From: Microbacterium proteolyticum
GTDB lineage: Bacteria; Actinomycetota; Actinomycetes; Actinomycetales; Microbacteriaceae
Assembly (NCBI RefSeq): GCF_029639405.1
Contig: NZ_CP121274.1
Coordinates: forward strand, 1,116,001-1,180,000
Reading direction: 5' to 3'
Length of the DNA: 64,000 nucleotides
The first letter of the stretch is position 1; every line of letters starts with the position of its first letter. Position numbers and translations under genes: made by a program. A model generated the notes under the pieces. The model was not told the origin of the DNA. It was given only the letters and a program-made list of their open reading frames with translations, and searched no databases. Below, in pieces: positions 30,172 through 57,687 of this stretch.

Positions 30172-30173
30172 CG

Positions 30174-30665: not shown

Positions 30666-31445
30666 TTAGGCCTCCCACTCATTGATCGCGTCGCTGGAGA
30701 CTACAGCAAAGAACATTTGCTTCGAAATTTTGTGTGCGTCATCGATCATCATGATCGTGTCGTCGGTAATTAGCTGCGTTGTGGCGAACAACTTAGTGGA
30801 TACAGTCAAGACTGTTTGGTTTGGCTCGCCGGCTGGTTGGATCGAGGCTGTGACTTGCGCCGTTCCATATTCAAGGACAACCTGAGCCGCAACTTCGTAC
30901 CCTTCTGCGATAACAGTTCCCGGAACGGGCGTATCGAGCTGTCTAAAGGGGGCATACTTCGCGTGCAATCCTGACTCCGAGGTGGGCACACGATTCACAT
31001 AAGAGAACTCTGCAATCAGAGGGATCAGACCCTCCCCGTCCACTGATGGAGCGAGCTCGCCGATAAGCGCGAGCATTCTCGGCCGAATCGCGTCATCGAA
31101 CCCAGGATAGGTGCCTGCCTCATCGGAGGTCCGTCGCCAGTTGAGCAGTAGCCGATCGTCCTGGGTCTGGACGAGCCAGGCCTTGTCCGGAGAGGTAGAC
31201 CAGAGGCGGGTAGGCGGGGCGGAAGCCACGAACTGCATCTCAAACTCTGGGCCGGATTGTCCAGATGGTCGTGACGGAGGAAGCGTCGGTTGCGCGGTTA
31301 CGTCTGGATACTGGTCCATCCAGGCTGAAGTTTCCCGCACCAGTCCCACAACGTCCAGCCCCCGCGGGCGGAACTCGATCCCTGCGACGGCCTCCACGAC
31401 GGGCGGATTCGTCAGACTGCGATCAGTCACACGGCCGGTAGACAC
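30666..31445 (-). CDS. TIGR04255-family protein
   Basis: About 259 residues. The N-terminus NPPVVEAVAGIEFRP and the C-terminal pattern D-x3-DDAH-x-ISKQMFFAVVSSDAI fit the sporadically distributed TIGR04255 family, whose function is unknown. GTG 31445 or GTG 31430 may be the start; neither has a good ribosome binding site, so the mRNA may be leaderless. First gene of a three-gene minus-strand unit with distinctly low GC: I count 56 G+C in 120 bases at 30661-30780, against about 70% nearby. Likely horizontally acquired. Confidence 0.75.
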   Translation of the reverse strand: MSTGRVTDRSLTNPPVVEAVAGIEFRPRGLDVVGLVRETSAWMDQYPDVTAQPTLPPSRPSGQSGPEFEMQFVASAPPTRLWSTSPDKAWLVQTQDDRLLLNWRRTSDEAGTYPGFDDAIRPRMLALIGELAPSVDGEGLIPLIAEFSYVNRVPTSESGLHAKYAPFRQLDTPVPGTVIAEGYEVAAQVVLEYGTAQVTASIQPAGEPNQTVLTVSTKLFATTQLITDDTIMMIDDAHKISKQMFFAVVSSDAINEWEA

Positions 31446-42580: not shown

Positions 42581-42620
42581 GCCTTCGAGCCTAACCGGGG
42601 GCACCGACGCCCCGGGTGCG

Positions 42621-42640
42621 CGGGCCGCGGGGGCCCGCGG
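42621..42640. repeat. GC-only palindrome upstream of the CCA gene
   Basis: CCGCGGG and CCCGCGG (42625-42640) around two bases, in a stretch that is almost pure G+C. Its place at the left edge of the catabolic block is noted; function unknown. Confidence 0.3.
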
Positions 42641-42702
42641 CGGCTGAGGCCGTCGGCGATGTGCTCGTTGCGGGCACTCGGACGGGAAGCTATGCTCGCA
42701 TC

Positions 42703-42729
42703 ACACATTATGAGTTACTGAATATGTGT
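42703..42729 (+). promoter_or_regulatory. AT-rich promoter/operator of the catabolic block
   Basis: ACACAT at 42703-42708 and ATGTGT at 42724-42729 enclose TATGAGTTACTGAAT-type sequence. This is strikingly AT-rich for the genome and lies about 60-90 bp before the first FAD dehydrogenase gene, where a LysR activator site would be expected. The word ATTATG recurs at the promoters near 47723 and 52002. Confidence 0.45.
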
Positions 42730-42791
42730 AATCAAAGCTTAGTGCGAGTAGCGAACTCGCGCCAATCATCACGTACCAACGGGGGAACCTG

Positions 42792-44516
42792 ATGCCATCG
42801 AAACCGTCCGACGGAACCTACGACATCGTCGTGGTGGGGGCAGGAGCGGGTGGGCTCGCGGCTGCCGTCTCGGCCGCCCACCGGGGAAGCTCCGTCCTCG
42901 TCCTCGAAGCCGACGAGACCTGCGGCGGGGCGACCGCGTGGTCGGGCGGATGGCTGTGGGCGCCGCGATCGATCCTCGCGAAAGCCGAGGGCGTCGATGA
43001 GTCGATCGACGACGTCAAGAGCTACCTGCGCGCGGCGCTCGGCGACGACTACGACGAGGAGCGGATCACCGCCTTCCTCGAAGCTGCGCCCGAGATGATC
43101 GAGTTCTTCCACACCAGAACCGCGCTCAAGTTCGTGCCCGGGTCGAAGATCAACGACATCTACGGCGATCTCCCCCATGCGGGCACCGGCAACCGCTCCG
43201 CGGGTGCGAAGCCCATCAACGCCCGGAAGCTGAGCCCCGCCGTGCGCAGACTCCTGCGCGGACAGCTCTACGAGACGTCGTTCCTGGGCATGGGCATCAT
43301 GGCGGGGCCCGACCTGGGAGCATTCCTGTCCGCAGCGCGCGGCAGCGTGAAAGGCCTCTGGCACTGCTTCTGGCGGTTCGGGTTCCACCTCTGGGATCTG
43401 GTCCTCCACCGTCGGGGATGGCAGCTCGTCAACGGCACGGCACTGGTCGGCCGCCTTCTGCAATCCGCCGAGGATGCCGGCGTCGAGATACGCGTCACCT
43501 CGCCCGCCCGCAGGATCCTCACGGACGGCGACGGCCGGGTCACGGGCGTCGTCGCCGACACCCCCGACGGGGAGATGACCTTCCACGCTCGCGCGGGAGT
43601 CGTGCTCGCGGGCGGCGGATTCCCGAATGATGTGGAGCGACGGCGCGAGCGGTTCCCCCGCACGCCGACCGGGCGAGAGCATTGGACGCTCGCGCCGCGG
43701 ACGGCCGACGGCTCCGGGATCACCCTGGGCGAGAGCGTCGGCGGCGTGCTCGTGCAAGCTGCGTCGGCGGGCGCCTGGTGTCCGGTCTCGCTCGTGCCGT
43801 ATCGCAACGGTCGCACCGGCGTGTTCCCGCACATCATGGACCGAGCCAAGCCCGGCAGCATCGGCGTCGTCAGCACCGGCAAGCGGTTCGTCAACGAGGC
43901 CAACGGCTACTTCGACTACGTCACGGGCATGTTCCAGGCTGCGCCCGAGGGTGAGCCCGTGCAGTCGTGGCAGATCGCGGATGCGACGTTCGTGCGCCGA
44001 TTCCCGCTGGGGATGGCCAAGCCGCGGCCGGTGCCGCTGTTCCCGTACCTGTCCAGCGGGTATCTCGTGCGAGCACGGACGCTGCCCGAGCTCGCCGCGA
44101 AATGCGGCATCGACCCGGACGGTCTCCTCGCGACGGTGGAGAAGTTCAACGCCGATGCCCGCCGGGGTGTCGACACCGAGTTCCAGCGCGGCTCCACACC
44201 CTTCAACCGGTACGGCGGAGACGTCTCCTACACACCGAACCCCTCGCTGGCGCCGCTGGAGAAGGGTCCGTTCTATGCGGTCCGAGTCGTTCCCGGCTCA
44301 TTCGGCACGTTCGCCGGCCTGGCCACCGACGGTCACGCCCGGGTCGTGGATGCCGACGGGCGACCGATCGAAGGACTGTATGCGGTCGGCGCGGATCAGG
44401 CGAATGTGATGGCCGGCCACTACCCCGCCGGTGGTGTCAACATCGGCCCCGCCCTCGCATTCGGCTACGTCGCCGGACGCGAGCTCGCACGGATGAAGAA
44501 AGAGGCACTCCGATGA
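42792..44516 (+). CDS. KstD-like FAD-dependent dehydrogenase 1
   Basis: 574 residues of the FAD_binding_2 / 3-ketosteroid dehydrogenase family. FAD motif VVVGAGAGGLAAAVSAAHRG near the N-terminus; ATAWSGGWLWAPRS corresponds to the KstD SGG-x-x-W-x-P loop. Y544 and G548 in HYPAGGVNIG match the Tyr/Gly pair that promotes keto-enol tautomerism in KstD, which suggests 1,2-desaturation next to a ketone. Substrate is probably not a steroid, given the neighbours. First gene of the block, coupled to the next by an ATGA overlap. Confidence 0.85.
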   Translation: MPSKPSDGTYDIVVVGAGAGGLAAAVSAAHRGSSVLVLEADETCGGATAWSGGWLWAPRSILAKAEGVDESIDDVKSYLRAALGDDYDEERITAFLEAAPEMIEFFHTRTALKFVPGSKINDIYGDLPHAGTGNRSAGAKPINARKLSPAVRRLLRGQLYETSFLGMGIMAGPDLGAFLSAARGSVKGLWHCFWRFGFHLWDLVLHRRGWQLVNGTALVGRLLQSAEDAGVEIRVTSPARRILTDGDGRVTGVVADTPDGEMTFHARAGVVLAGGGFPNDVERRRERFPRTPTGREHWTLAPRTADGSGITLGESVGGVLVQAASAGAWCPVSLVPYRNGRTGVFPHIMDRAKPGSIGVVSTGKRFVNEANGYFDYVTGMFQAAPEGEPVQSWQIADATFVRRFPLGMAKPRPVPLFPYLSSGYLVRARTLPELAAKCGIDPDGLLATVEKFNADARRGVDTEFQRGSTPFNRYGGDVSYTPNPSLAPLEKGPFYAVRVVPGSFGTFAGLATDGHARVVDADGRPIEGLYAVGADQANVMAGHYPAGGVNIGPALAFGYVAGRELARMKKEALR

Positions 44517-45349
44517 AACGGTCCCTGGGTGTCGCCCATCTCACCCTGCTCTCGCTCACACCACCGGAGGTCGTCACGACCGCCGCGGCCGCCGGGTTCG
44601 ACTTCGTCGGCCTCCGAGTCAAGGCGGTCACTGCGACCGAGCGCGCCTTCCCGATGCACGCCGGCTCGCCGATGCTGCGGGAGACGATCGCCCGAATGGA
44701 TGACACGGGCATCATCGTGCGCGACATCGAGTTCCTGCCGATCACCCCCACCACCACGTCGGGCGACTGGCTCGCCGCCTTGGAATCCGGGGCGGCGCTG
44801 GGCGCCACCGCGCTCACCGTGACCGGCGCCGACCCCGACCGCTCCCGCCTGCTGGACACGCTCACGCGACTCACCGCAGACGCGGCCGGGTACGGCATCC
44901 GTCCCGTCCTGGAGCCGATCTCGTACCAACCGGTGAGCCGCGTCGCGGACGCGGCAGCCGTCGCCCGCGCCGCCCGCGCCGCGATCATGCTCGACCCGCT
45001 CCATGTGCACCGCGGCGGCAGCACGCTCGACGAGATCCGCGCCCTCGAACCCGATCTCGTCCCCGTCGTGCAACTGTGCGACGCGCCCCTGGAGGCGCCC
45101 ACCGGGCCGGATCGGGTCGCCGCGCTCCAGCGGGAGGCGCGCGTGCAGCGTCTCCTCGTGGGCGAGGGCGCCTTGCCGCTTGCCGAGCTCCTCGACGCGA
45201 CCCCGGCCGGGACCCCGGTGAGCGTGGAGATCCCGCACGCCGAGCTGCAGGCGCGATGGAGTCCGCTCGAGTACGCGACTCTCGCCGCGCGCTCCGCCAG
45301 GCAGCTCATCGACCGCGTCGACGAAGCCCGCGACACTGCCGCCGCGTAG
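44513..45349 (+). CDS. TIM-barrel protein of the sugar phosphate isomerase/epimerase (AP_endonuc_2) family
   Basis: 278 residues. Probable metal ligands are E134 (VLEPISYQ), D161 and H164 (MLDPLHVHRGG) and E239 (VEIPHAEL), with Q187 in VVQLCDAP. 3-Dehydroshikimate dehydratases of the AsbF/QuiC/QsuB type share this fold and comparable ligands, and a quinate/shikimate dehydrogenase is encoded 5 kb downstream, so a dehydratase or isomerase acting on a cyclic keto acid is plausible. An epimerase on another polyol remains possible. Confidence 0.78.
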   Translation: MKRSLGVAHLTLLSLTPPEVVTTAAAAGFDFVGLRVKAVTATERAFPMHAGSPMLRETIARMDDTGIIVRDIEFLPITPTTTSGDWLAALESGAALGATALTVTGADPDRSRLLDTLTRLTADAAGYGIRPVLEPISYQPVSRVADAAAVARAARAAIMLDPLHVHRGGSTLDEIRALEPDLVPVVQLCDAPLEAPTGPDRVAALQREARVQRLLVGEGALPLAELLDATPAGTPVSVEIPHAELQARWSPLEYATLAARSARQLIDRVDEARDTAAA

Positions 45350-45379
45350 GCGCACGGCATCCGCATCGAAGGAGAACCC

Positions 45380-47167
45380 ATGACCGACAGCGCCCCCTGG
45401 CACGACACCGTCGACCTTCTCGTGCTCGGCACCGGCGCGGCGGGCCTGTCCGCCGCGACCACCGCCGCCGCGAAAGGCCTGAGCACGCTGGTGCTGGAGA
45501 AGACCGAGTACCTGGGCGGCACGACCGCCTACTCCGCCGGCACCTGCTGGGTTCCCGGCCACCGCTACCAGCGCGCCGCCGGCCAGGTCGATGAGCAGCG
45601 CGACGCCTCGCGCTATCTCGACCTCGTCGTCGGCGACAAGGCACCCCGGGAGATGCGGGAGACCTATCTGGCGCGCGCACCCGAGATGATCGACTGGTTC
45701 CACGACCTCGGCGTGCGGTTCTGGCACTCGCAGACCGTGGTGGACTACCACCCCGAGATCGAGGGGGCGGGTGTGGGCCGTGCCCTGGAACCCGAGACGT
45801 TCGACGGCCGCAGGCTGGGCATCGACGATTTCCGTCGAGTACGCCGACCCGTTCCGGAGTTCGCCCTCTTCGGCGGCACGCTGATGGTGCGCCGCGCCGA
45901 GGTCACGCAACTGCTGAAGCTCTTCCGTTGGTCGCCACGCGCCGCCCTCCTCGCACTCCGGCTCGGCGTGCGGTGGTTCTTCGATCGGATCACATACCCG
46001 CGCGGAACGAGACTGGCCATGGGCAATGCCCTGGTCGCGAACCTGTTCCACACCCTCAAGACCCGTGGCGGCGAGGTGCTGTTCAACAGCACGGCCAAGG
46101 AACTCCTCGTCGAGAATGGGGCGGTCATCGGCGCCGTGATCGAAACGGCCGGACAGGAGCGGCGCATCCGCGTCCGCCGTGGCGTCGTCCTGGCCGGCGG
46201 TGGTTTCTCGGCCAGCCGGTCGTGGCGCGAACAGCACCTTCCCACACCGACCCCGCAGTTCACCCGCGCGGCCGAGAGCGCCACCGGCGACTCGATCGCC
46301 CTCGGCCTCGCTGCGGGCGGCGCGCTGGGACCCGACCACGACGACAACGGCTTCTGGTTCCCCAGTTCCATCGGGCATCGCAAGGACGGCTCGCTCGTGG
46401 TGTTCCCGCACATCTGGGACCGCGCGAAGCCCGGAATCGTCGCCGTCACGGCATCCGGCCGTCGCTTCGTCGACGAGTCCGTGTCGTACCACCGGTTCGT
46501 GAGGGCCATGTACCGGACGCAGGCGACCGACGAGGCGGTGCCGGCGTGGCTCATCATCGACTCGCGATCGCTCTACGAGTACGGGCTCGGCATGATCCGC
46601 CCCCACACACCCGCAGCGTTCCTGCGCAAGTACGTCACCGGCGGGTACATCCACCGGGCGGATTCCCTCCACGCCCTTGCGAAGCGGATCGGCATCGACC
46701 CCGACGGTCTGGCCCAGACGGTGCGCACCAACAACCGCGCCGCCCTCACCGGTGTCGACGAGGAGTTCGGCAAGGGATCGAGCCCGTTCGGCCACCAGTA
46801 CGGCGACCCCCGCCACACCCCGAACGTCAACCTCGGGCCGATCGAGAAGGGCCCCTTCTACGCCCTCCCTCTCGTGCCCACACCCCTGGGCACGGCTCTC
46901 GGACTGCGCATCGACGAGAGCGCTCACGTGCTCGACGCCCACGGCGATGTCGTTCCCGGGCTGTACGCCGCCGGCAACGACGCCGACTCACCCATGGCGG
47001 CGGAGTACCCCGGCGCGGGCGGCCAGGTCGGTGCGGGAATGACGTTCGGCTACATCGCCGCCATGGATGCCGCGCGCCGCGAGAGCGCCGACCCACGCGA
47101 CGACGCGCCACGAGACCTGGCGCGCCCCCGACAGGGCTCGCGAACTCGTGCGACGGTCGACCGCTGA
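45380..47167 (+). CDS. KstD-like FAD-dependent dehydrogenase 2
   Basis: 595 residues; GAAGGAG precedes ATG 45380. FAD motif LVLGTGAAGLSAATTAAAKG, loop GGTTAYSAGTCWVPG, and Y543/G547 in EYPGAGGQVG correspond to the catalytic positions of KstD. A 40-residue polar, Arg/Asp-rich tail extends past the family end. It shares family but not close sequence with the dehydrogenases at 42792 and 53443, so the three may act on successive intermediates. Confidence 0.85.
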   Translation: MTDSAPWHDTVDLLVLGTGAAGLSAATTAAAKGLSTLVLEKTEYLGGTTAYSAGTCWVPGHRYQRAAGQVDEQRDASRYLDLVVGDKAPREMRETYLARAPEMIDWFHDLGVRFWHSQTVVDYHPEIEGAGVGRALEPETFDGRRLGIDDFRRVRRPVPEFALFGGTLMVRRAEVTQLLKLFRWSPRAALLALRLGVRWFFDRITYPRGTRLAMGNALVANLFHTLKTRGGEVLFNSTAKELLVENGAVIGAVIETAGQERRIRVRRGVVLAGGGFSASRSWREQHLPTPTPQFTRAAESATGDSIALGLAAGGALGPDHDDNGFWFPSSIGHRKDGSLVVFPHIWDRAKPGIVAVTASGRRFVDESVSYHRFVRAMYRTQATDEAVPAWLIIDSRSLYEYGLGMIRPHTPAAFLRKYVTGGYIHRADSLHALAKRIGIDPDGLAQTVRTNNRAALTGVDEEFGKGSSPFGHQYGDPRHTPNVNLGPIEKGPFYALPLVPTPLGTALGLRIDESAHVLDAHGDVVPGLYAAGNDADSPMAAEYPGAGGQVGAGMTFGYIAAMDAARRESADPRDDAPRDLARPRQGSRTRATVDR

Positions 47168-47194
47168 CACCTGGACGAGAGAAGGACGACCACG

Positions 47195-47683
47195 ATGACC
47201 TCCCGCGACTCCCTCGGGCAACCGACGTCGAATCTCCGCGATCTCGCGTCCGCCCTCGACCAGGTGGGAATAGTGGTCCCCGATCTCAACGCCGTCGAGG
47301 TCGGGATGCGCGCGATCTTCGGGCTCGAGCCGCGCTCCCGTTCCGAGAACGTGTACACCGGCACCTCCTATAGGGGCCGCACGATCGACACGCGAGTCGG
47401 CGCGTTGTTCTACGACCTCTTCGGCCTCGAGCTCGAATTCCTCTCCCCGCGCGGCGGTCCCGACATCTGGCAGGAGTTCCAGGACGAGCACGGCCCGGGC
47501 CTGCATCACATCCGATTCGCGGTCGAGGATCATGACACCGTCGTCGACGCCATGGCGGCCATCGGCATCCCCGTCCACCAGGAGGGCGACTCGGTGCGCG
47601 GGGGAGGCGTCCGGTACGCGTACTTCGACGCTCGACCGAGCCTGGGGTTCTTCGTCGAGATCCTGTCGACCCCACCCGGCTGA
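47195..47683 (+). CDS. VOC/glyoxalase-family protein
   Basis: 162 residues with two beta-alpha-beta-beta-beta units. Likely metal ligands are Q in LDQVGIVVPDL (His in most relatives), H in GLHHIRFAVED and E in FFVEIL. Such proteins act as epimerases, lyases or ring-cleaving dioxygenases. QsuB-type dehydroshikimate dehydratases carry VOC modules fused to a TIM barrel; here a TIM barrel and a VOC protein are separate genes two apart. Confidence 0.8.
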   Translation: MTSRDSLGQPTSNLRDLASALDQVGIVVPDLNAVEVGMRAIFGLEPRSRSENVYTGTSYRGRTIDTRVGALFYDLFGLELEFLSPRGGPDIWQEFQDEHGPGLHHIRFAVEDHDTVVDAMAAIGIPVHQEGDSVRGGGVRYAYFDARPSLGFFVEILSTPPG

Positions 47684-47716
47684 GACCGCACCATCGGGGA
47701 CTGTGACTGACGGCAT

Positions 47717-47744
47717 CCGGAATTATGTATTCTTCCGGTATAAA
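47717..47744 (+). promoter_or_regulatory. Palindrome and -10-like element before the LysR gene
   Basis: CCGGAA at 47717-47722 and TTCCGG at 47733-47738 form an inverted repeat with an inner GAAT-N5-ATTC dyad. TATAAA follows at 47739-47744. This fits a LysR autoregulatory promoter upstream of GTG 47826. Confidence 0.55.
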
Positions 47745-47825
47745 AGGGCAGGCATCAGGTGCGGTTCTGGCTTCGGCCGGGCCGGCGAATGGATGCCTCC
47801 CGCACGGCAGATCGGGGAGATCACA

Positions 47826-48722
47826 GTGGAGATCCGGTGGTTGGAGGCCTTCATCGCCGTCGCGGAGGAGCTGCACTTCGGTCGCGCCGCGCAACGCCTC
47901 CGTATCGCGCAGTCGCCCCTGAGCCAGACCATCCGCAGGCTCGAGGCGAGCGTGGGTGCCGACCTGTTCGAACGCAACACCCGCAGTGTCGCGCTGACAC
48001 CGGCGGGATCGGCGCTGCTCCCCATGGCCTACCGCGTCATCCAAGACCTCGCCCTCGCGACGGCGGCCGCCCGGGCCGCGTCCGGCGCGGTCCACGGGAC
48101 TGTGCGTATCGGGTTCTCCGGGGCGTTCAATCATCTGACCCTCCCGGTTCTCGCCCGCACCGTGCGCCGCGAACTGCCGGATATCGATCTGCAACTCGTG
48201 AGCCGCGTGCGTACCGGCGACGGTCTGGTGAAGCTGCGGAACGGCACTCTCGACATCGCCTTCGTCGGTCTGCCCATCACGGCCGAGGGTGTCGCCTCCC
48301 GGTTGATCGCCCGCACCGAACTCGGGGCGGCGCTACCGGTCGATCACCCGCTCGCCGACGAGGCCTCGATCAGCGCGGCGCAGCTCGCCGACGACGACTT
48401 CCTGTCGATGCCGATGGACGGCTCCTCCTCGATGGCGGAAGCATTGATGCGCTGCTGCATCGCGGCCGGCTTCCGACCTCGGGTGACGCAGGAGATCACC
48501 GACCCCTACATCATGCTGACGCTGGTCGCGGCGGGTCTTGGCGTCTCGGTCATCGCCGAGGACCTCGCGCCGATCATGCCGCGGGGAGCCCGGTGGGTCC
48601 GATTCCACGACGAACCCCAGTACATGCTCCACGGCATCGCCTGGATGACCGACGAGCAGTCCGCGGCCGTGAGCGCCGTGCTCGGACTGTCCGAGAAGAT
48701 CCTGCCCACTCCCGCAGATTAA
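47826..48722 (+). CDS. LysR-family regulator of the catabolic block
   Basis: 298 residues from GTG 47826; GGGAG lies six bases upstream. N-terminal helix-turn-helix (RWLEAFIAVAEELHFGRAAQRLRIAQSPLSQTIRRLEASVG) is typical of the CatR/BenM-like branch that controls aromatic and alicyclic acid degradation. The effector domain follows (GTVRIGFSGAF, PLADDFL-type segments). It sits between the two halves of the cluster, probably sensing a pathway intermediate. Confidence 0.9.
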   Translation: MEIRWLEAFIAVAEELHFGRAAQRLRIAQSPLSQTIRRLEASVGADLFERNTRSVALTPAGSALLPMAYRVIQDLALATAAARAASGAVHGTVRIGFSGAFNHLTLPVLARTVRRELPDIDLQLVSRVRTGDGLVKLRNGTLDIAFVGLPITAEGVASRLIARTELGAALPVDHPLADEASISAAQLADDDFLSMPMDGSSSMAEALMRCCIAAGFRPRVTQEITDPYIMLTLVAAGLGVSVIAEDLAPIMPRGARWVRFHDEPQYMLHGIAWMTDEQSAAVSAVLGLSEKILPTPAD

Positions 48723-48869
48723 GCACGATCACGGCTTAGTCAGTGACGCATAAAGTCATTTACATGTCTCAATGCGGCTGTCAGTGTGACTCCATCGACT
48801 GCGGGCCGCAGTCGGACCCTGGCAGACAACGACGCTGACCCTCGCGTCGTCCAATGGAAGGCAGACGAC

Positions 48870-50273
48870 ATGTCAACGACGACATCTCCACCCAAACCCA
48901 AGAACAACGCTCGCATCGCCGCCGTCTCCGGCTTCATCGGCAGCGCGCTGGAGTACTACGACTTCTTCATCTTCGCGTCCGCAGCTGCGCTGATCTTCCC
49001 GCAGCTCTTCTTCCCCGCCGGTGAGCCCGGCGTCGCCACCCTCCTCTCGCTCGCCACCGTCGGGGTCGCCTACGTCGCGCGACCCTTCGGTGCGATCTTC
49101 TGGGGGCACGTGGGCGACAAGTGGGGCCGCAAGCGCGCCCTGCTGGCCTGCCTGCTGGTGATGGGCATCGCGACGTTCGCCGTCGGGTGCCTTCCCACCT
49201 GGGACGTGGTCGGCATCCTCGCGCCGATCCTCGTCGTCTTCCTCCGCCTCATCCAGGGATTCTCGGCCGGCGGCGAGTCCCCCGGCTCCAGCGCCCTCAC
49301 CCTCGAGCACTCGCCCGCCCACCGTCGCGGCTTCTTCACGAGCTGGACGATGAGCGGCATCATGTTCGGGATCGTGATCTCCAGCCTGGTGTTCATCCCG
49401 ATCGCCGCGATGCCGGAGGAGGCTCTTCTGAGCTGGGGCTGGCGCGTTCCGTTCCTCGCCTCCGCGTTGGTGACGATCGTCGCGATCTTCCTGCGCCGCA
49501 TGCTCGACGAACCCGAGGTGTTCGAAGAGGTCAAGGAGAGCGACGAGGTCGCGAAGATCCCGCTCGTCACGCTGCTCCGTTACAACGGCCTCACCGTGCT
49601 CCGCGTGATGCTGATGGCGCTGTTCACCGTCGTCAACACGATGTTCAACGTCTTCGTCCTCGCCTACGGCACCAGCGTCGCCGGCATCCCGCGCGCGGAT
49701 CTGCTGTGGGTGATCACCATCGCGAACTTCACCGCCGTCTGCGTCGGCCCGTTGGTCGGCGCCCTGTCCGACCGCGTCGGCCGCAAGCCCGTGTTCCTCG
49801 TGGGACTCGTCCTGCAGTCGATCACGATCTACGCGCTGCTCGCCGCCGTCGACGCCGCCAACATGACACTCGTCTGGGTGCTCGGCATCCTCCTGGTCGG
49901 CGTCGCGTACACGCTGTCGAACTCGGTGTACCCGGCGTACTTCCCCGAGCAGTTCCCGGCGCGGGTGCGCTACTCCGGGATGGCCGTGAGCCTCATGCTG
50001 GGGCTGCTGCTCGCGGGCTTCGCGCCGGCCATCGCGCAGGGCTTCGTCACCGGTGCCGGCAACGAGCAGAACTGGCCCGCCGTCGCGCTGTTCACGATCG
50101 GCATCGTCGTCGTCTCCGGGATCGCCGCGATCTTCGCTCCCGAGACGGCCCGCACACCCACGCAGCACCTGGGCCTCACCCGCCGCCAGCTGGCCGAGAT
50201 CGACCGGCGCGACGCCGTCGGCGAGCCCCTGACCGCGTCGGTCCGCACCACCCCGTACGATCGGCTCCGCTGA
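48870..50273 (+). CDS. MHS-family transporter (shikimate/aromatic-acid type MFS)
   Basis: 467 residues with twelve predicted membrane segments. MHS features: GSALEYYDFFIFASAAAL in segment 1 and GHVGDKWGRKRAL in the first loop, ALSDRVGRKP in the second half. ShiA, which imports shikimate, is in this family, and the next gene is a quinate/shikimate dehydrogenase. GGAAGG precedes ATG 48870. Likely the uptake system of the pathway. Confidence 0.88.
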   Translation: MSTTTSPPKPKNNARIAAVSGFIGSALEYYDFFIFASAAALIFPQLFFPAGEPGVATLLSLATVGVAYVARPFGAIFWGHVGDKWGRKRALLACLLVMGIATFAVGCLPTWDVVGILAPILVVFLRLIQGFSAGGESPGSSALTLEHSPAHRRGFFTSWTMSGIMFGIVISSLVFIPIAAMPEEALLSWGWRVPFLASALVTIVAIFLRRMLDEPEVFEEVKESDEVAKIPLVTLLRYNGLTVLRVMLMALFTVVNTMFNVFVLAYGTSVAGIPRADLLWVITIANFTAVCVGPLVGALSDRVGRKPVFLVGLVLQSITIYALLAAVDAANMTLVWVLGILLVGVAYTLSNSVYPAYFPEQFPARVRYSGMAVSLMLGLLLAGFAPAIAQGFVTGAGNEQNWPAVALFTIGIVVVSGIAAIFAPETARTPTQHLGLTRRQLAEIDRRDAVGEPLTASVRTTPYDRLR

Positions 50274-50338
50274 TCGACCACCGTCGGGGTCGCGCCGTTG
50301 CGGCGCGGCCCCGATCCGTCTTCCGGGAAGGAAGCCCC

Positions 50339-51214
50339 ATGACCGCCTCGTACCTCGTCGGGCTCATCGGCTCCGGCATCCAAACCTCCCTCACTCCCGC
50401 CCTGCACGAGGGTGAGGCGGACGCTCTCGGCCTGCGCTACCTGTACCGCCTCATCGACATCGACCGGCTCGGCAAGACGGCGACGGATGCCGCGGCGCTC
50501 GTCCGCGCGGCACGCGACGTCGGGTATGACGCCCTCAACATCACCCACCCGTGCAAGCAGACCGTGTTCGACGCACTGGACGAGCTCTCGCCCGACGCCG
50601 AGCTCCTCGGCGCGGTCAACACGGTCCTCTTCCGCGACGGTCGGACGATCGGTCTGAACACCGACCATTCGGGCTTCGCCTCGGGGCTGCGCGACGGGCT
50701 CAGGGCTCCCGTGGTGGACAGGGTCGTGCTCCTCGGCTCCGGGGGTGCCGGGTCCGCGATCGCCTACGCGCTGCTCAACGCCGGGACGACACGACTCTCG
50801 GTGTACGACCCGGTGATCGAGCGCGCCGACGCGGTGTGCCGCGCCCTCGGCCCCGCCTTCCCCGGCGTGCGGGTCGTCGCCATCACCCCTGACGAGCTCG
50901 CCGCGGCGATCGCCGCGGCCGACGGGCTCGTCAACGCGACACCGATCGGCATGACCGGACACCCCGGGATGCCGATCTCTGCGACGCTGCTGCACTCGCG
51001 CCTGTGGGTCGCCGACGCCGTGTACCGTCCCCTGCGAACCGAGCTCATCGAGACCGCCGACGCGCTCGGCTGCGCCGTGCTCGATGGGGGCCGCATGGCC
51101 GTGGGGCAGGCCGCGGACGCGTTCCGGCTGATCACCGGCGCCGAGCCCGACCCGGTGCGGATGCGCGCGCACTTCCTCCAGCTCACCGGCGCGCTGAGCG
51201 CCGCCTCGCGCTGA
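50339..51214 (+). CDS. Quinate/shikimate dehydrogenase
   Basis: 291 residues of the AroE/YdiB superfamily. The opening LIGSGIQTSLTPALHEGEADALGLRYLYRLID resembles the catabolic NAD-dependent QsuD group of Corynebacterium. Catalytic Lys73 is in THPCKQTV and Asp109 in NTDHSGF; N94 is in GAVNT. The nucleotide-binding loop LLGSGGAGSAIAYAL and end MRAHFLQLTG fit the group. It oxidises quinate or shikimate to the 3-dehydro acid. It lies 65 bp after the transporter, so uptake and oxidation are linked. Confidence 0.87.
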   Translation: MTASYLVGLIGSGIQTSLTPALHEGEADALGLRYLYRLIDIDRLGKTATDAAALVRAARDVGYDALNITHPCKQTVFDALDELSPDAELLGAVNTVLFRDGRTIGLNTDHSGFASGLRDGLRAPVVDRVVLLGSGGAGSAIAYALLNAGTTRLSVYDPVIERADAVCRALGPAFPGVRVVAITPDELAAAIAAADGLVNATPIGMTGHPGMPISATLLHSRLWVADAVYRPLRTELIETADALGCAVLDGGRMAVGQAADAFRLITGAEPDPVRMRAHFLQLTGALSAASR

Positions 51215-51242
51215 CAGCACGCGCGCGGGTGCCGGGCGGGAC

Positions 51243-51983
51243 TCAGTAGTCGGCGCGTCCGCCGGACAGGTCGAACGTCTGCCCCGTCGTGAAGCCGCAC
51301 TGATCGCTGGCGATCCACGCGACCGTGGCCGCGAGTTCATCGACGGTCAGGAATCGGGCCAGGGGGATCAGGGCGCGGGTTCGATCGATGAACTCCTCCG
51401 TCAACTGTGAGAACAGCTCCGTCTTCACCATCGCCGGCGCGATCGCGTTGACGGTGATGCCGTCCTTCACCACCTCACGGGCGAGCACCTTCGTCATCCC
51501 CACCACGCCGTGCTTCGCGGCGGTGTACGCCGACAGCGAGGTCGTCGCCTCCTTGCCCGCGATCGAGGCGACGGTGATGATCCTCCCGTAGCCGCGCGCC
51601 CGCATGTGCGGCACCACGGTCTTCGCCGTCAGGAATGCACCGGTCAAGTCGATGTCGACCACGCGCCTCCAGTCATCCGCGTCGTACTCCCACAACGGTC
51701 CGACCGGGCCGGTGATCCCGGCGGACGACACCACGATGTCGACCGAGCCCAGGTGATCGAGGGTCTGCGCGAAAGCCTCCCGCAGAGATGCTTCGTCGGT
51801 CACGTCGGCGGCGAGGAGCGCGGCGGGCTCCCATCCGCCGGGGAACGCGCCGGGATCGCGATCCCATACCGCCACCCGTGCGCCGGCCCTGGCGAACAGT
51901 GCGCCGATGCCCGCGCCGATTCCACCCGCTCCCCCCGTGATGACGACGGAGCTGTCTCGGAAGTCGAAGGTCACCTGTGACAT
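51243..51983 (-). CDS. Short-chain dehydrogenase/reductase
   Basis: 246-residue classical SDR (FabG-like). Cofactor motif TGGAGGIGAGIGALF, an NNAG equivalent read as SSAG, catalytic Ser in VASIAGK, Tyr and Lys in YTAAKHG. It is the only minus-strand gene in the block and is divergent from the YCII gene. Its start (ATG 51983) has no clear ribosome binding site. It probably reduces or oxidises a ring hydroxyl of a pathway intermediate. Confidence 0.85.
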   Translation of the reverse strand: MSQVTFDFRDSSVVITGGAGGIGAGIGALFARAGARVAVWDRDPGAFPGGWEPAALLAADVTDEASLREAFAQTLDHLGSVDIVVSSAGITGPVGPLWEYDADDWRRVVDIDLTGAFLTAKTVVPHMRARGYGRIITVASIAGKEATTSLSAYTAAKHGVVGMTKVLAREVVKDGITVNAIAPAMVKTELFSQLTEEFIDRTRALIPLARFLTVDELAATVAWIASDQCGFTTGQTFDLSGGRADY

Positions 51984-52007
51984 GACACCAACGTAGTCCG
52001 GATTATG

Positions 52008-52049
52008 ACTGAACAAGAGTATAAATTGAGACGAATTCAGTCGTTCAGT
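52008..52049. promoter_or_regulatory. Inverted repeat in the SDR-YCII divergent spacer
   Basis: ACTGAAC at 52008-52014 and GTTCAGT at 52043-52049, 28 bp apart, within an AT-rich stretch containing GTATAAA and ATTATG. Likely shared control region for the divergent genes, perhaps bound by the LysR protein encoded at 47826. Confidence 0.45.
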
Positions 52050-52106
52050 TCACACTATCCGCCTCCCATACTGAGACCGTCAGACACTCAGGACAAAGGA
52101 GTCAGC

Positions 52107-52403
52107 ATGACGACGTTCGCGGTCACCTACCGCTACAGGGACGACAGCGATGCGGAGCGCCACACGCATCGCCCCGCCCACGTCGAGTTCCTGCAAGACC
52201 TCCACTCCGACGGCTACCTCTACATGAGCGGCCCCCTGGCGAGCGAACCGTCACGTGCGCTGCTCGTGTTCGAGGACACCGACGCCGACACCCTGGAAAC
52301 CCGGCTCGACGGCGACCCGTTCTTCGAGAACGGGCTCATCGCCGAGCGCACGGTGACCGCCTGGAACGTCTTCTTCGACCCGCGCCGGACGACGGAGCGG
52401 TGA
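52107..52403 (+). CDS. YCII-family small protein
   Basis: 98 residues with AAAGGA before ATG 52107. The YCII ferredoxin-like fold is suggested by RPAHVEFLQDLHSDGYLYMSGPL with its His-Asp pair, as in muconolactone-isomerase-like and 5-chloromuconolactone dehalogenase-type enzymes. It could be a lactone or ring isomerase in the pathway. Its stop overlaps the next start. Confidence 0.8.
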   Translation: MTTFAVTYRYRDDSDAERHTHRPAHVEFLQDLHSDGYLYMSGPLASEPSRALLVFEDTDADTLETRLDGDPFFENGLIAERTVTAWNVFFDPRRTTER

Positions 52404-53446
52404 TGCTCACGGCCCGGACTGTCGCGCGCGAGACACTGTCGTTCGACGAGACGCCCCTGCCCGCACTCACCCCCGGTCACGCACTCGTGGAGATCCACGC
52501 CGTGAGCCTGTGCGGCACCGACCTGCACATCTTCGAAGACGACTTCCCCACCGACCTGCCCCTCGTGCAGGGACACGAGATGGCCGGCATCATCCGCGAC
52601 GCGGACACCGTTGGCGGTCTGCAGGTCGGAGACCGGGTCGCGATCGACCCCGTCGTCGCGTGCGGCACCTGCCGCGCCTGCCGGATCGGCCGCGACAACG
52701 TGTGTCAGAACCTCTCCGTGCTCGGTTGCTACGAGGACGGCGGTTTCGTCGAGGTCCTGAGCGTCCCCGTCGACCGGCTGTGCCCCGTGCCCGACGACCT
52801 GCCGCTCGAGGTCGCCGCCGTCGGTGAGCCAGCATCGATCTCGCTGCAAGCCGTCAGCCGTGCCGAACCCGCCGCCGGCGAGACGGCGCTGGTGCTGGGA
52901 TGCGGCCCCATCGGGCTGCTCGCCGCGCTCGGTCTCTCCGAGCGTGGCGTGACCGTCGTCGCCGCCGACACCGACCCCGACCGTGTCGCACTCGCGCGGA
53001 CGTTCGGCGCCGCGCACGCATTCGAGGTGGGCCGCGAGTTCCCCGATGCCGGGCAACGCGCGACCTTGGACGCATTGACCGAGGGCGCGGGGCCGGAGAT
53101 CGTCATCGAGGCCACCGGCGTCCCCGCCTCGCTCGAGAACGCGATCCGCCTGATCGCGCCCGCGGGCCGCATCGTGCAGGTCGGCATCTCATCCCGCTCG
53201 GTCGGTCTGAAGATCAAGGACCTCACCGACAAGGAGATCGATCTGCGCGGCAGCCGCAACAGCCGGCGCCTCATCCCCGAAGGGCTCGCGATGCTCGCGC
53301 GGCACCCGGAAGCAGCGGATGCGCTGCTGACGCACCGGTTCCCGTTCTCGCGACTCGCCGAAGCGTTCCACACGATGAGCGACCGCACCATCCCGACCGG
53401 CAAGATCCTGATCCTCATGCCCGCCGCCCAGGCTGTGACGTCATGA
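52403..53446 (+). CDS. Zinc-dependent dehydrogenase (threonine/sorbitol dehydrogenase type)
   Basis: 347 residues. Catalytic zinc CGTDLHIF and GHEMAGII; full structural-zinc set CGTCRACRIGRDNVC; cofactor loop LVLGCGPIGLLAALGLSERG. ATG 52403 overlaps the YCII stop; GTG 52400 is also in frame. It probably oxidises a secondary ring alcohol. The gene after it starts in its stop codon. Confidence 0.88.
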   Translation: MLTARTVARETLSFDETPLPALTPGHALVEIHAVSLCGTDLHIFEDDFPTDLPLVQGHEMAGIIRDADTVGGLQVGDRVAIDPVVACGTCRACRIGRDNVCQNLSVLGCYEDGGFVEVLSVPVDRLCPVPDDLPLEVAAVGEPASISLQAVSRAEPAAGETALVLGCGPIGLLAALGLSERGVTVVAADTDPDRVALARTFGAAHAFEVGREFPDAGQRATLDALTEGAGPEIVIEATGVPASLENAIRLIAPAGRIVQVGISSRSVGLKIKDLTDKEIDLRGSRNSRRLIPEGLAMLARHPEAADALLTHRFPFSRLAEAFHTMSDRTIPTGKILILMPAAQAVTS

Positions 53447-55077
53447 CCGGCGCGCTGCTGACCGGCACGGCGGCCCTGCCCGCCGACATCGACGTCCTGG
53501 TGCTCGGATCCGGTGCCGCAGGACTGGTCGCAGCCCTCCGCGCGGCGGATGCGGGCGCATCCGTCGTCGTCGCGGAGAAGGCCGACCGACTCGGCGGGAC
53601 GACCTGTGCGGGCGGAGGGGTCATCTGGGCTCCGGCGACCGCGGTCGGCTCCTCGGCGGGCTTCGCGGACAGCGTCGAGGACGGCGTCGCGTACCTCTCG
53701 GCTTCGTCGGGGCATGTGATGGATGCCGAGGCGATCGACTGGTACGTGCGCACCGCCGCCGACGCGATCGACTACCTCACGACTCGCACGCGGGTGGCCC
53801 TCACCGCGCTCACTCGACCCGATTACCGGGGCGAATGGCCGGGCGCCGCCCAGGGCGGGCGAAGCCTCGACAACGACGCGTTCGATCCGGCCGGATTCCC
53901 CGGACTGGCGGACGCGCTGCGACCCTCCTCCTATTTCCCGCTGCTCACGATGGCCGAACGCGACGGCCTCAACGGCCGCGCACCCGACCCGTCGCTCCTC
54001 GAACAGCGCCGTCAGCGCGGTGTGCGCACGATGGGCGGCGCGCTCGTCGGCGCTCTCGTCGCGTCGGCACTGGACCGCGGCATCCGCATCGTCCGCTCCG
54101 TCCGGGCCGACGGTCTGGACCTCGCCGGCGATGCGTGGAGCGTGGCCTTCGGGGACACCACCGTCATCGCACGCTCCGTCGTGATCGCGACCGGCGGATT
54201 CGAATGGAATCCGCGCCTCCGCGACGCGTTCCTCGCCTTCCCCGTCACCCCCATCAGCGCACCCTCGAACGAGGGCGACGGCCTGGAACTCGGCCTCGCC
54301 GCTGGAGCAGCGGTCGCCGACATGACCGCGATCTGGGGCGTTCCCGTGCTCACCTCCCCGACGCAGACCTACGACGGACTCCCGTCTGGACGAATGGGGA
54401 ACGTCGAGATGACCCTCCCCGGATCGATCGTCGTCAACGCCGAAGGGCGACGCTTCGTCAACGAAGCACTCGCCTACCACGACGCCTGCCGCATGTTCGG
54501 AGACACCGACCCCGCGACCGGGCGGCAGCGCAACAATCCCGCCTGGCTCGTGTTCGACAGCGCCTTCGCCGCCCGCTACCCCATCGCCGGGGCGGCGGCA
54601 GGGGCGATTCCCGACTGGGCCGTGACCGCGGACTCATTCGAGGAGCTCGCCGACGAGCTCGGCATCCACCCCGCGGGTCTGGTCCAGACGGTCGCGCGCT
54701 TCAACGAAGACACCGAGCGCGGTCGCGACACCCAGTTCGGTCGCGGCGACAGCCCCCAGGACCGGTTCCTCGGCGACGCGACCCACAGCCCGAACCCCTG
54801 CCTCGCGCCCCTCTCGACCCCGCCCTACGCGGCCGTGCCGATCCACGCCGGGGCCCTCGGCACTTCCGGCGGCTTGCGCACCGACGTCGACGGACGCGTG
54901 CTCGGCTGGGACGGCACCCCCCTCGACGGACTGTTCGCGGCGGGCAACGCCGCCGCCGGAGTGTTCCGGAACACCTATCCCGGCGGCGGCGCGACCCTCG
55001 GCTCCGCCGTGACCCGGGCCTACGTCGCCGGCGCCACCGCTGCATCGCACGCCGTGTCCGCGGTGGCGCCGGCATGA
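53443..55077 (+). CDS. KstD-like FAD-dependent dehydrogenase 3
   Basis: 544 residues. FAD motif VLVLGSGAAGLVAALRAADAG, loop GGTTCAGGGVIWAPAT, and Y512/G516 in TYPGGGATLG. Shorter than the two other KstD-like proteins of the block. It overlaps both neighbours by four bases, forming a tight YCII-dehydrogenase-FAD-Gfo/Idh operon. Confidence 0.85.
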   Translation: MTGALLTGTAALPADIDVLVLGSGAAGLVAALRAADAGASVVVAEKADRLGGTTCAGGGVIWAPATAVGSSAGFADSVEDGVAYLSASSGHVMDAEAIDWYVRTAADAIDYLTTRTRVALTALTRPDYRGEWPGAAQGGRSLDNDAFDPAGFPGLADALRPSSYFPLLTMAERDGLNGRAPDPSLLEQRRQRGVRTMGGALVGALVASALDRGIRIVRSVRADGLDLAGDAWSVAFGDTTVIARSVVIATGGFEWNPRLRDAFLAFPVTPISAPSNEGDGLELGLAAGAAVADMTAIWGVPVLTSPTQTYDGLPSGRMGNVEMTLPGSIVVNAEGRRFVNEALAYHDACRMFGDTDPATGRQRNNPAWLVFDSAFAARYPIAGAAAGAIPDWAVTADSFEELADELGIHPAGLVQTVARFNEDTERGRDTQFGRGDSPQDRFLGDATHSPNPCLAPLSTPPYAAVPIHAGALGTSGGLRTDVDGRVLGWDGTPLDGLFAAGNAAAGVFRNTYPGGGATLGSAVTRAYVAGATAASHAVSAVAPA

Positions 55078-56135
55078 AGGCCCTCCGCATCGCCGTCGTC
55101 GGCGCAGGAGCCATCGGGGCGACCCACGCCGAGACGATCACGGCCACCCCGGGAATCGTCCTGGCGGGGATCGTCGACCCCTTCACCGCGGGGGAGACGC
55201 TCGCCGCGCGATACGGCACGGCGCGGTACAGGGATATCGGCGAGCTCATCGGCTCCGGCGGAGTGGATGCGGCGATCATCGCCACACCCAACGAGCTCCA
55301 CGTCCCGATGGCGCTCGAACTCATCGCCGCCGGAATCCCCATCCTCATCGAGAAACCGCTCGCGACCAGCCTTTCCGAGGCGATGGAGCTCGTGACCGCA
55401 GCCGAGGATGCCGGAGTCCCGGTGCTCGTCGGGCACCATCGCCGCCATCACCCGGTCGTGCGCCGCGCGAAGGAGATCGTCGACTCCGGCGGACTCGGCC
55501 GCATCGTCGCCGTCAGCGCCACCTACTTCCTGTCCAAACCCGACGACTACTACGACGTCGCCTGGCGCCGCAGCGCCGGCAGCGGCGGTGTCTTCCTCAT
55601 CAACCTCATCCACGAGATCGACATGCTGCGCCACCTCATCGGCGAGATCACGTCCGTCTCCGCCGTCGCATCCTCCGCTGTCCGCGGGCTGGATGTCGAG
55701 GACACCGGGGCGTTGACCTTCACGTTCGACGGCGGTGCGCTCGGCTCGCTCATCATCTCCGACACCGCCGCGGGCCCGTGGAGCTGGGATCTGACCGCCG
55801 GCGACTCCCCGCGGTTCCCCGCGCATAACGTCGACTCGCACCGCATCGGCGGAACGGAAGCCTCCCTCACCATTCCCACGCTCGAGGTCTGGAGACACCA
55901 GGGCGAGCGCACGTGGACGACGCCGATGATCCCCGTCCGCGAGTCCCGTGGATCGTCGAACCCCTACGCGGGCCAGCTGCGGCACTTCTCCGACGTCATC
56001 AACGGCATCGCCGAGCCGCTCGTCAGCGCCCGCGAGGGTGCGGCGAACCTCGCCGTGATGGATGCCGTCACCGCCGCCGTCGAAACGGGTCGGGCAGCCG
56101 GCGTCCGATTCGCACCCGGCACCGACTCCCGTTAG
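55074..56135 (+). CDS. Gfo/Idh/MocA-family oxidoreductase
   Basis: 353 residues. Rossmann motif VVGAGAIGATHAETI, the family EKP motif in LIEKPLATS, and the His-rich GHHRRHHPVVR plus NLIHEIDMLRHLIGE with the catalytic Asp/His region. Enzymes of this family oxidise ring hydroxyls of cyclitols and sugars, such as inositol 2-dehydrogenase. Last gene of the block. Confidence 0.88.
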   Translation: MKALRIAVVGAGAIGATHAETITATPGIVLAGIVDPFTAGETLAARYGTARYRDIGELIGSGGVDAAIIATPNELHVPMALELIAAGIPILIEKPLATSLSEAMELVTAAEDAGVPVLVGHHRRHHPVVRRAKEIVDSGGLGRIVAVSATYFLSKPDDYYDVAWRRSAGSGGVFLINLIHEIDMLRHLIGEITSVSAVASSAVRGLDVEDTGALTFTFDGGALGSLIISDTAAGPWSWDLTAGDSPRFPAHNVDSHRIGGTEASLTIPTLEVWRHQGERTWTTPMIPVRESRGSSNPYAGQLRHFSDVINGIAEPLVSAREGAANLAVMDAVTAAVETGRAAGVRFAPGTDSR

Positions 56136-56163
56136 ACCCTCGCTGGGGGTCGCAGGAGCCGCC

Positions 56164-57687
56164 CTAGTCCGCGAACCTCAGGAACCCGGTGACGATGAGT
56201 TCCCGCACCCGCGGCAGGACGTCCGCGCGGAGCTCCGCGGCATCCACGTCCAGGAGCTGGGCGATCGCGTCGACGAGCGACCCGACCGACAGGTCGCCGT
56301 CGCACGCCCCGACGAGGGCCGCGAGCGCCGAGTCGACGTCGAGCGTGCGGGCGAAGCCGCCGCCCTGGCGCAGCTCGATCACCGACGGCGACTCCTCGCC
56401 GGGCCGGTGGTGCCGGGCCTCGGTCACGTCGGGAGCGACCTGTAGGACAGCGGATGCCAGTCCCTCATCGTCCAGGAGGGCGGCGCGGTCGTGGTTCTCC
56501 AGGCACGCCGCGAGGTGCGGCCCGAACGCGGACTCGCCGCCGCCCGCGACCCGCTCGTAGCGGGACAGGGTCGGTGCGCCGGCCAGCGGTCGCCGGAGCA
56601 GCACGTACCCGAAGCCGATTCCGGTGACGCCGCGACTCGCGAAATCGTCGAGCCACGCGCCGATGAGCCGCGCGTACTCGGGCGTGCCCGGAATGGTGCC
56701 CCCGTCCCGCACCCACAGCTCGGCGTAGGCGAGGGGGTCGAGCACCTCGCGCTCGATCACCCAGGCGTCGAGCGACGTGTCCACCCACCCGCGGACGCGA
56801 TCGAGGCCGGACTCGCCCTCGCGGTACTCCCAGTTGCCCAGCGACTGCGCGACCCCGCCGGGCGCGAGGTGCGCACCGACGGAGGAGATCATTGAGGCGA
56901 CGAGCGCATCGCCCTCCAGCCCGCCGTCGCGGTACTCGTACGCCGGGACGCCCGCGACACGCGGCGTGATCACGAACGGGGGATTGGATGCCACCCGATC
57001 GAACGTCTCCCCGTCGACCGGGTCGAAGAGCGAACCGAGCCGGGTCTCGATCCCGTCGACGTCGTTGAGCAGCGCGTTCAGGCGCGTGAAACGCAGCGCG
57101 CGCTCGGAGATGTCCGTCGCCACGACCCGCGGGACCAGCCGCCGCAGGCGGAGGGCCTGGATGCCGCAGCCGGTGCCGAGGTCGAGGGCCGAGCCTCCGC
57201 GCCACGTCAGCTGCAGCGTGGCCAGGGTCTGCGATGCCCCACCCACGCCCAGGACGTGGTCTTCGGGGAGCGGCCCGCCGAGCGCGGCTTCATCGAGGTC
57301 GCTCGCGATCCACCACTCGACGTCCCCGGCGGCATCCGCGAACGGTTGGGGGCGGATGAGGGCCGCGGGGGCGACGCGATCACCGTCGAGCGCGACGAGA
57401 CCGAGGGCCTCGGCACCGTCGAGCCCGAGCCCCGGGAGAGCCGCCGACGCGTCCTCCCGAGCGACCGGTGCACCGAGGACCCACAGACGCCCGAGGACCG
57501 CGAGCGCGTCGCGTCGGTCGCCGAGGGCACGCTCGGCCGGCCCGCGCAGGCCCCGCGGGACGGCGTCATCGGCCTGGACGCCCCACGCCTCGCGCAGCGC
57601 CGCACCCGCGAACCCCGCGGTCCGCAGATCGTCGGCGAGGGCACGGCACAGGGTCGGGTCTGGTTCGGGGAGCACCGCCCCATTCAA
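56164..57687 (-). CDS. Class I methyltransferase with N-terminal DUF7059-type domain
   Basis: About 507 residues. An N-terminal winged-helix-like region (about 1-130) is followed by a MTS-type core: SALDLGTGCGIQALRL, ATDISERALRFTRLNALLN and the NPPF tetrapeptide, which is typical of N-methylation of bases or glutamine amides. A C-terminal region of about 170 residues follows. No ATG fits; TTG 57687 or GTG 57675 may start it. This is a conserved actinobacterial protein of unknown target. Confidence 0.82.
   Translation of the reverse strand: MNGAVLPEPDPTLCRALADDLRTAGFAGAALREAWGVQADDAVPRGLRGPAERALGDRRDALAVLGRLWVLGAPVAREDASAALPGLGLDGAEALGLVALDGDRVAPAALIRPQPFADAAGDVEWWIASDLDEAALGGPLPEDHVLGVGGASQTLATLQLTWRGGSALDLGTGCGIQALRLRRLVPRVVATDISERALRFTRLNALLNDVDGIETRLGSLFDPVDGETFDRVASNPPFVITPRVAGVPAYEYRDGGLEGDALVASMISSVGAHLAPGGVAQSLGNWEYREGESGLDRVRGWVDTSLDAWVIEREVLDPLAYAELWVRDGGTIPGTPEYARLIGAWLDDFASRGVTGIGFGYVLLRRPLAGAPTLSRYERVAGGGESAFGPHLAACLENHDRAALLDDEGLASAVLQVAPDVTEARHHRPGEESPSVIELRQGGGFARTLDVDSALAALVGACDGDLSVGSLVDAIAQLLDVDAAELRADVLPRVRELIVTGFLRFAD

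Follow-up and report, generated by a model that had tools for sequence, protein, structure and literature searches.

Between the cca gene and the DUF6049 gene of Microbacterium proteolyticum, whose 3.97 Mb genome comprises two contigs, lie twelve genes that include three flavin dehydrogenases resembling the steroid dehydrogenase KstD and a quinate/shikimate dehydrogenase. The locus raises the question of what such enzymes do together, and of whether the twelve genes arrived as a unit. It was examined within a 64,000-nucleotide stretch of contig NZ_CP121274.1 (the window; coordinates are counted from its first letter). With moderate confidence, the genes are interpreted here as a horizontally acquired catabolic island with which the bacterium would use, aerobically, carboxylic acids that carry a hydroxylated cyclohexane or cyclohexene ring, that is, relatives of quinate and shikimate, perhaps in dihydro or deoxy forms. 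The cluster mixes enzymes of the quinate/shikimate type with enzymes of the chc (cyclohexanecarboxylate) type, and its most likely function, we infer, is the aromatisation of these acids via ring ketones.

The case for acquisition comes from genome comparison. In a genome of the same species (G1309), 99 bp lie between the aligned ends in place of window positions 42617-56153, and the flanks are 97-98% identical on both sides (blastn). The corresponding gaps are 113, 112 and 35 bp in three other members of the genus (G695, G215 and G1288, respectively). This empty site within the species, together with the similarly short gaps elsewhere, strongly supports a true insertion of 13.5 kb, so that both the interruption of the cca-DUF6049 gene order and the island status put forward in the original prediction held up within the genus. 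In G1124 and G1128 (loci L213 and L212), other genes occupy the site between cca and the neighbouring methyltransferase gene; because different genes sit at the same place, the site may be an insertion hotspot. Its contents there include repeat-domain proteins, a metallophosphatase and a luciferase-like monooxygenase. The island does not stand out by base composition (GC content 0.696, versus 0.709 and 0.702 in the flanks); its tetranucleotide distance of 0.171 is high, but the values for other parts of the window span 0.088-0.176. No tRNA gene was found within the window and no integrase among the twelve genes, the border sequences having been inspected by eye alone. Spots near 19.4-22.1 kb of the window look similar to the G1309 spacer. 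A palindromic repeat considered as an insertion target was dropped after a pattern search gave two matches in the window, a number equalled in 3 of 100 shuffles, and two in the genome.

The features of the island, with families assigned by Pfam and NCBIfam models, are as follows.

42617..56153: whole island, 13,537 bp (blastn comparison of the window with six genomes of the genus, G1309 among them)
42792..44516, plus strand: FAD1, KstD-like flavin dehydrogenase of the ChcC2 sister clade, with Ile as the Tyr119 equivalent (Pfam, NCBIfam, tree)
44513..45349, plus strand: triosephosphate isomerase (TIM)-barrel protein, dehydroshikimate-dehydratase-like, with E134, D161, H164, Q187 and E239 (Pfam, fold search, alignment)
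45380..47167, plus strand: FAD2, KstD-like flavin dehydrogenase in a clade of its own (Pfam, NCBIfam, tree, model)
47195..47683, plus strand: vicinal oxygen chelate (VOC; Glyoxalase_4) protein, possibly an epimerase (Pfam, NCBIfam)
47826..48722, plus strand: LysR-type regulator (Pfam, NCBIfam)
48786..50273, plus strand: major facilitator superfamily (MFS) metabolite/H+ symporter, shikimate-transporter-like (TIGR00883, 337 bits, cut-off 443; NF007414, 258 bits, cut-off 538)
50339..51214, plus strand: QsuD-like quinate/shikimate dehydrogenase (SDH) with conserved K73, N94 and D109 (NF009201, 391 bits, cut-off 235; best PDB match 3jyo)
51243..51983, minus strand: short-chain dehydrogenase (SDR) without assignment to a particular family (top FabG model 198 bits, cut-off 296; ChcB2 model 168 bits, cut-off 350)
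52033..52058: conserved intergenic block between the SDR and YCII genes (cluster comparison in the genus)
52107..52403, plus strand: YCII-domain protein (Pfam)
52400..53446, plus strand: zinc-dependent alcohol dehydrogenase (Zn-ADH; Pfam, NCBIfam)
53443..55077, plus strand: FAD3, flavin dehydrogenase resembling KstD (highest-scoring model ChcC1, 370 bits, cut-off 1000)
55074..56135, plus strand: Gfo/Idh/MocA dehydrogenase (Pfam, NCBIfam)

These genes fill positions 42792-56135 in the order listed. All eleven families named beforehand are present, and the LysR regulator is the twelfth gene, which had gone unnamed. Overlaps of a few bases at FAD1/TIM, YCII/Zn-ADH, Zn-ADH/FAD3 and FAD3/Gfo give the cluster an operon-like arrangement; the start codons of SDR (51983), YCII (52107), FAD3 (53443) and Gfo/Idh (55074) were set from the sequence. 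Outside the island, cca (41153-42604) lies on one side, and the methyltransferase gene (56164-57687), followed by DUF6049, on the other.

No KstD-like FAD_binding_2 protein other than FAD1, FAD2 and FAD3 was found in the genome, where the 28 Pfam matches to this domain comprise these three, SdhA and NadB (both over their NCBIfam cut-offs) and 23 partial matches. FAD1 exceeds the cut-off of NF009476, an unnamed oxidoreductase family (958 versus 940 bits), while the KstD models NF009478 and NF005882 yield 326-458 bits, below cut-offs of 788-789. For alignment positions, the catalytic residues of KstD were taken to be Tyr119, Tyr318, Tyr487 and Gly491. The predicted retention of the KstD Tyr/Gly pair was borne out by alignment of all three proteins, which also keep the Tyr318 equivalent; FAD2 and FAD3 have all four residues. 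The structure model of FAD2 (predicted local distance difference test score, pLDDT, 77.6) is closest in fold to KstD, followed by urocanate reductase and cyclohexanone dehydrogenase (8am3). A FAD2-type dehydrogenase is fused to a shikimate dehydrogenase in P0086, an 897-residue protein from a cluster of eight sequences and the one fusion seen among 120 listed of 3461 FAD2 relatives, and an SDH gene adjoins FAD2 in G892.

Phylogeny places the three proteins apart from one another and from two solved steroid dehydrogenases. FAD1 is the sister of ChcC2, with a Shimodaira-Hasegawa-like approximate likelihood ratio (SH-aLRT) support of 97 in a 78-row tree and of 96/96 in a careful 47-row tree. FAD3 belongs to a broad group that also holds ChcC1 and numerous further proteins, and FAD2 forms a separate group with its sister clade, FAD2b. 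The 78-row tree was built without 43 of the 56 distant loci, without 12 loci that were near-duplicates and without proteins shorter than 400 residues; the 47-row tree is a further subset. No grouping of the FAD proteins with these solved steroid dehydrogenases was seen: approximately unbiased (AU) tests reject a grouping with both solved KstDs, 7p18 and 8joj, for FAD1 (p 0.005), FAD2 (p 0.0002) and FAD3 (p 0.00004). Because these two KstDs stand apart from each other, single pairings were also tested, and both FAD3 with 7p18 (p 0.0007) and FAD2 with 8joj (p 0.004) were rejected. The comparison covers 7p18 and 8joj only, and their branches are long, with weak support (75) for their placement in the 78-row tree.

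The TIM-barrel protein and SDH resemble enzymes of quinate and shikimate chemistry. The former, modelled with a pLDDT of 95.5, has as its top fold matches 2g0w, the Listeria protein Lmo2234, which we take to be QuiC2, and 5hmq, a fusion of a TIM barrel with an HPPD domain that is presumably the dehydratase QuiC1. It meets no curated NCBIfam family. All of its metal-site residues (E134, D161, H164, Q187 and E239) are invariant across 31 hits, a set that counts the protein itself, and the matching Asp-x-x-His spacing and two glutamates also appear in the active-site list given for AsbF in PMC9324987. The catalytic residues of SDH are likewise kept in 19 of 19 hits, again counting the protein itself, and its score exceeds the cut-off of the subfamily model NF009201.

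A search for the gene set in other genomes found the cluster again in other Microbacterium and in other actinobacterial genera. FAD2 occurs in five of 247 genomes of the genus, the present one included; the remaining four carry it at a different location. The full set of twelve genes is found in two of these (G1139 and G1196) and nine of the genes in G1288, in the same order, on a contig other than that of cca or megabases away from it; in G1251 a TIM-FAD2 pair is accompanied by weaker matches to SDH, SDR, TIM and Gfo/Idh. The intergenic block at 52033-52058 is kept in all four clusters compared within the genus, including G1288, where YCII is missing, and is a possible candidate for a LysR operator. 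Because G1288 lacks exactly YCII, Zn-ADH and FAD3, these three genes look like a separable module.

Beyond the genus, a scan of named genomes for FAD3 retained 80 loci, of which 24 (L062-L085), at 55-77% identity, belong to Microbacterium, Arthrobacter, Paenarthrobacter, Pseudarthrobacter, Paeniglutamicibacter, Enteractinococcus and Sinomonas. Gene company was examined at 38 loci, 34 of them with FAD3 (33 distinct, as G402b and L067 are probably one record). YCII, Zn-ADH and FAD3 are contiguous in all 34, accompanied by LysR in 31, MFS in 32, TIM in 28, FAD1 in 22, an old yellow enzyme (OYE)-type flavoenzyme in 20 and SDH in 13; the counts for FAD1, TIM and SDH are lower bounds, because many loci end before the place of those genes. 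None of 56 control loci, which contain distant FAD3 relatives, had any of eleven partner families when the identity thresholds were left unchanged, a setting that favours close relatives; 12 of the 56 loci are shorter than 12 kb. Without an identity limit (at least 50 bits), the control loci contained TIM in 4, OYE in 3, SDR in 28, LysR, MFS, ADH and Gfo/Idh in one each, and YCII in none. The OYE-type flavoenzyme, which is FadH/BaiCD-like, lies near FAD3 in L064-L078, L085, G402b, G477b, G091 and G003. It is absent, at loose thresholds too, from the loci with FAD2 (four) or FAD2b (four). Because OYE was never found with either, the pattern suggests that OYE and FAD2/FAD2b replace one another, but these loci share descent. 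Among the titles listed in literature searches, none pointed to this gene set.

In two genomes the cluster adjoins chc genes. ChcB1, ChcC1, ChcC2 and ChcB2, all over their NCBIfam cut-offs, lie beside it in G437. In Enteractinococcus helveticum (L079) its neighbours are ChcB1 and ChcC2, both above their cut-offs, and a ChcC1 that resembles the G437 protein at about 70%. These genomes probably represent different genera, because their FAD3 proteins are 56% identical. As described in PMC9795900, the chc pathway converts 4-hydroxycyclohexanecarboxylate into the 4-oxo acid and then, via two desaturases, into 4-hydroxybenzoate; aromatisation of cyclohexanecarboxylate is attributed there to Sinomonas cyclohexanicum (Yamamoto et al., 2021, as cited in PMC9795900). 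The island resembles this system in its dehydrogenases that would make a ring ketone, its KstD-like desaturases, the sister relationship of FAD1 to ChcC2 and the adjoining clusters. However, none of its twelve proteins has a cytochrome P450 domain (Pfam), its proteins score below the chc cut-offs, and several of its components go beyond that system: a dehydrogenase of the quinate/shikimate type, a TIM barrel resembling dehydratases, one more desaturase, and the YCII and VOC proteins. With the qsu and qui systems of Corynebacterium and Listeria it shares a shikimate-type transporter, a QsuD-like dehydrogenase and a TIM fold nearest Lmo2234; in contrast to them, it has no dehydroquinate dehydratase, its TIM barrel is not fused to an HPPD-like domain, and three flavin desaturases are extra. 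KstD and cyclohexanone dehydrogenase share the fold of its flavoenzymes, and FAD2 and FAD3 share the four catalytic residues of KstD, but the clades are separate from the two solved KstDs, FAD1 is without a Tyr119 equivalent, and no KshA domain was found in the genome by a search in which control genomes stayed below the cut-off too. Because defining features of each system were looked for and not found, the island is not assigned to chc, qsu or KstD.

The favoured reading assigns the genes to successive steps. The MFS protein would import the acid and the LysR protein would control the island genes. A ring hydroxyl would be oxidised to a ketone by the QsuD-like SDH, Zn-ADH, Gfo/Idh and SDR, and the KstD-type desaturases would take hydrogens alpha and beta to the ketone, the reaction that ChcC1 and ChcC2 carry out with 4-oxocyclohexane acids. 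The TIM-barrel enzyme would remove water, and the ring would become protocatechuate or 4-hydroxybenzoate, which could be degraded further through the pob/pca genes at another place on the chromosome. Whereas the insertion, the gene families, the conserved catalytic residues, the clades, the neighbouring genes, the fusion and the downstream genes are observed, the substrate, the sequence of reactions, the product, the regulation and the site of action of each FAD enzyme are proposed. The island was predicted to lack a protocatechuate dioxygenase; this is true of its twelve proteins, none of which is a dioxygenase by Pfam, but not of the genome. Near 918-924 kb of contig C2, about 235 kb from the island, lie pcaH (335 bits, cut-off 296), a second intradiol match at the place expected for pcaG, pobA (454 versus a cut-off of 351 bits with the subfamily model, 351 versus 539 with the equivalog) and two genes that resemble pcaB and pcaD but stay under the cut-offs. 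Therefore, protocatechuate or 4-hydroxybenzoate could be consumed even though the island has no dioxygenase of its own.

That a hydroxylated cyclohexane carboxylate would be oxidised and desaturated, and possibly made aromatic, had been foreseen and is indirectly supported by the FAD1-ChcC2 sisterhood, the chc neighbours in two genomes, the FAD2-SDH fusion and the rejected KstD groupings. A more specific version is possible, although tentative: a route intermediate between the quinate/shikimate and chc pathways, in which quinate- and shikimate-type acids and their dihydro or deoxy forms would be aromatised by dedicated KstD-type desaturases, with FAD2 acting as a unit with shikimate dehydrogenase and FAD1 chemistry proceeding without the Tyr119 relay. 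Lactobacilli turn quinate into dihydroxycyclohexanecarboxylate. Conversion of 3,4-dihydroxycyclohexanecarboxylate into protocatechuate would take one alcohol oxidation and two desaturations, and oxidised dihydroshikimate would reach dehydroshikimate through one desaturation.

Several results weigh against the proposed function. No island enzyme attains the curated NCBIfam cut-off for any chc step: FAD1 scores 478 of 900 bits with the ChcC2 model NF053677, and FAD3 and SDR stay similarly below the ChcC1 (NF053676) and ChcB2 (NF053701) cut-offs listed above. KstD models outscore chc models on FAD2 (458 versus 382 bits). An exclusive clade of FAD3 and ChcC1 was rejected (AU p 0.005), and mean identities hardly separate the groups (FAD1-ChcC2 38%, FAD3-ChcC1 37%, FAD2-ChcC2 33%, each protein to KstD 34%). 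The Tyr119 equivalent is lost throughout the FAD1 clade, where the 14 readable rows have 13 Ile and one Val (two of 16 rows end before the position). SDH remains below the cut-off of the NAD quinate/shikimate equivalog NF010631 (261 of 515 bits). The fold ranking of the TIM-barrel protein is narrow, with template modelling (TM) scores of 0.78 for 2g0w and 0.77 for IolI at rank eight, and AsbF, a proven enzyme of the dehydratase type, comes only 44th. Among the 34 FAD3 loci, FAD2 is present in four, VOC in three, a close Gfo/Idh in four and ChcC1 in only two.

Ordinary quinate and shikimate catabolism is the likeliest alternative. SDH would then work as QsuD and the TIM-barrel protein would dehydrate dehydroshikimate, the missing step would be supplied by the type II dehydroquinate dehydratase encoded elsewhere in the genome, and the FAD enzymes would act on side branches. 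The SDH score and its catalytic Lys, Asn and Asp, the TIM fold, the pca genes and the single type II enzyme (C2:2850376) all fit this; the earlier view that the island serves a different route rather than the usual quinate pathway was not shown, given the QsuD-like SDH, the dehydratase-like TIM barrel and the pob/pca genes. The explanation is nevertheless unlikely, as the island itself is without a dehydroquinate dehydratase (no type I enzyme was found in the genome, and the type II gene is outside the island), three conserved FAD clades are left unexplained, and a relative of FAD2 is fused to SDH. Catabolism of cyclitols or sugar acids, with Gfo/Idh, Zn-ADH and the TIM barrel as IolG-, IolM- and IolE/IolI-like enzymes, could draw on weak matches of Gfo/Idh to IolG (143 of 355 bits) and of Zn-ADH to IolM (157 of 450) and on the near-best TM-score of IolI. 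It appears quite improbable, since 2g0w and 5hmq lead the fold ranking, a close Gfo/Idh is rare among the FAD3 loci, and the QsuD-like SDH and chc neighbours fit it poorly.

The remaining alternatives concern the flavoenzymes. As enone-acid reductases in the style of fumarate or urocanate reductases, they would serve electron disposal. They share a superfamily with both reductases, and the OYE-type flavoenzyme accompanies FAD3 in 20 of 34 loci, but the nearest folds and residues are those of KstD, with cyclohexanone dehydrogenase coming after, ChcC relatives are named dehydrogenases, and the genome has an aerobic ring-cleavage route. The chance of this reading is accordingly small. Degradation of steroids or terpenoids by true KstDs might be read from FAD2, whose nearest fold is KstD, on which KstD models beat chc models, and many of whose relatives (among 120 listed of 3461) are auto-named '3-oxosteroid 1-dehydrogenase'. 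The AU tests against 7p18 and 8joj, KstD model scores far under their cut-offs and a search that found no KshA C-terminal domain in the genome, in which no control genome passed the cut-off either, disfavour the steroid reading and leave it still more improbable.

If the preferred reading, catabolism of hydroxylated cyclohexane and cyclohexene acids, is true, the island would account for the use of partly reduced cyclohexane acids by soil and plant-associated actinobacteria, give functions to protein clades now often auto-named steroid dehydrogenases, and make desaturases available for hydroxybenzoate production.

Elsewhere in the window, at 29710-31445, three minus-strand open reading frames with low third-position GC lie within or beside the lowest-GC 2-kb stretch (0.609) and are possibly foreign.

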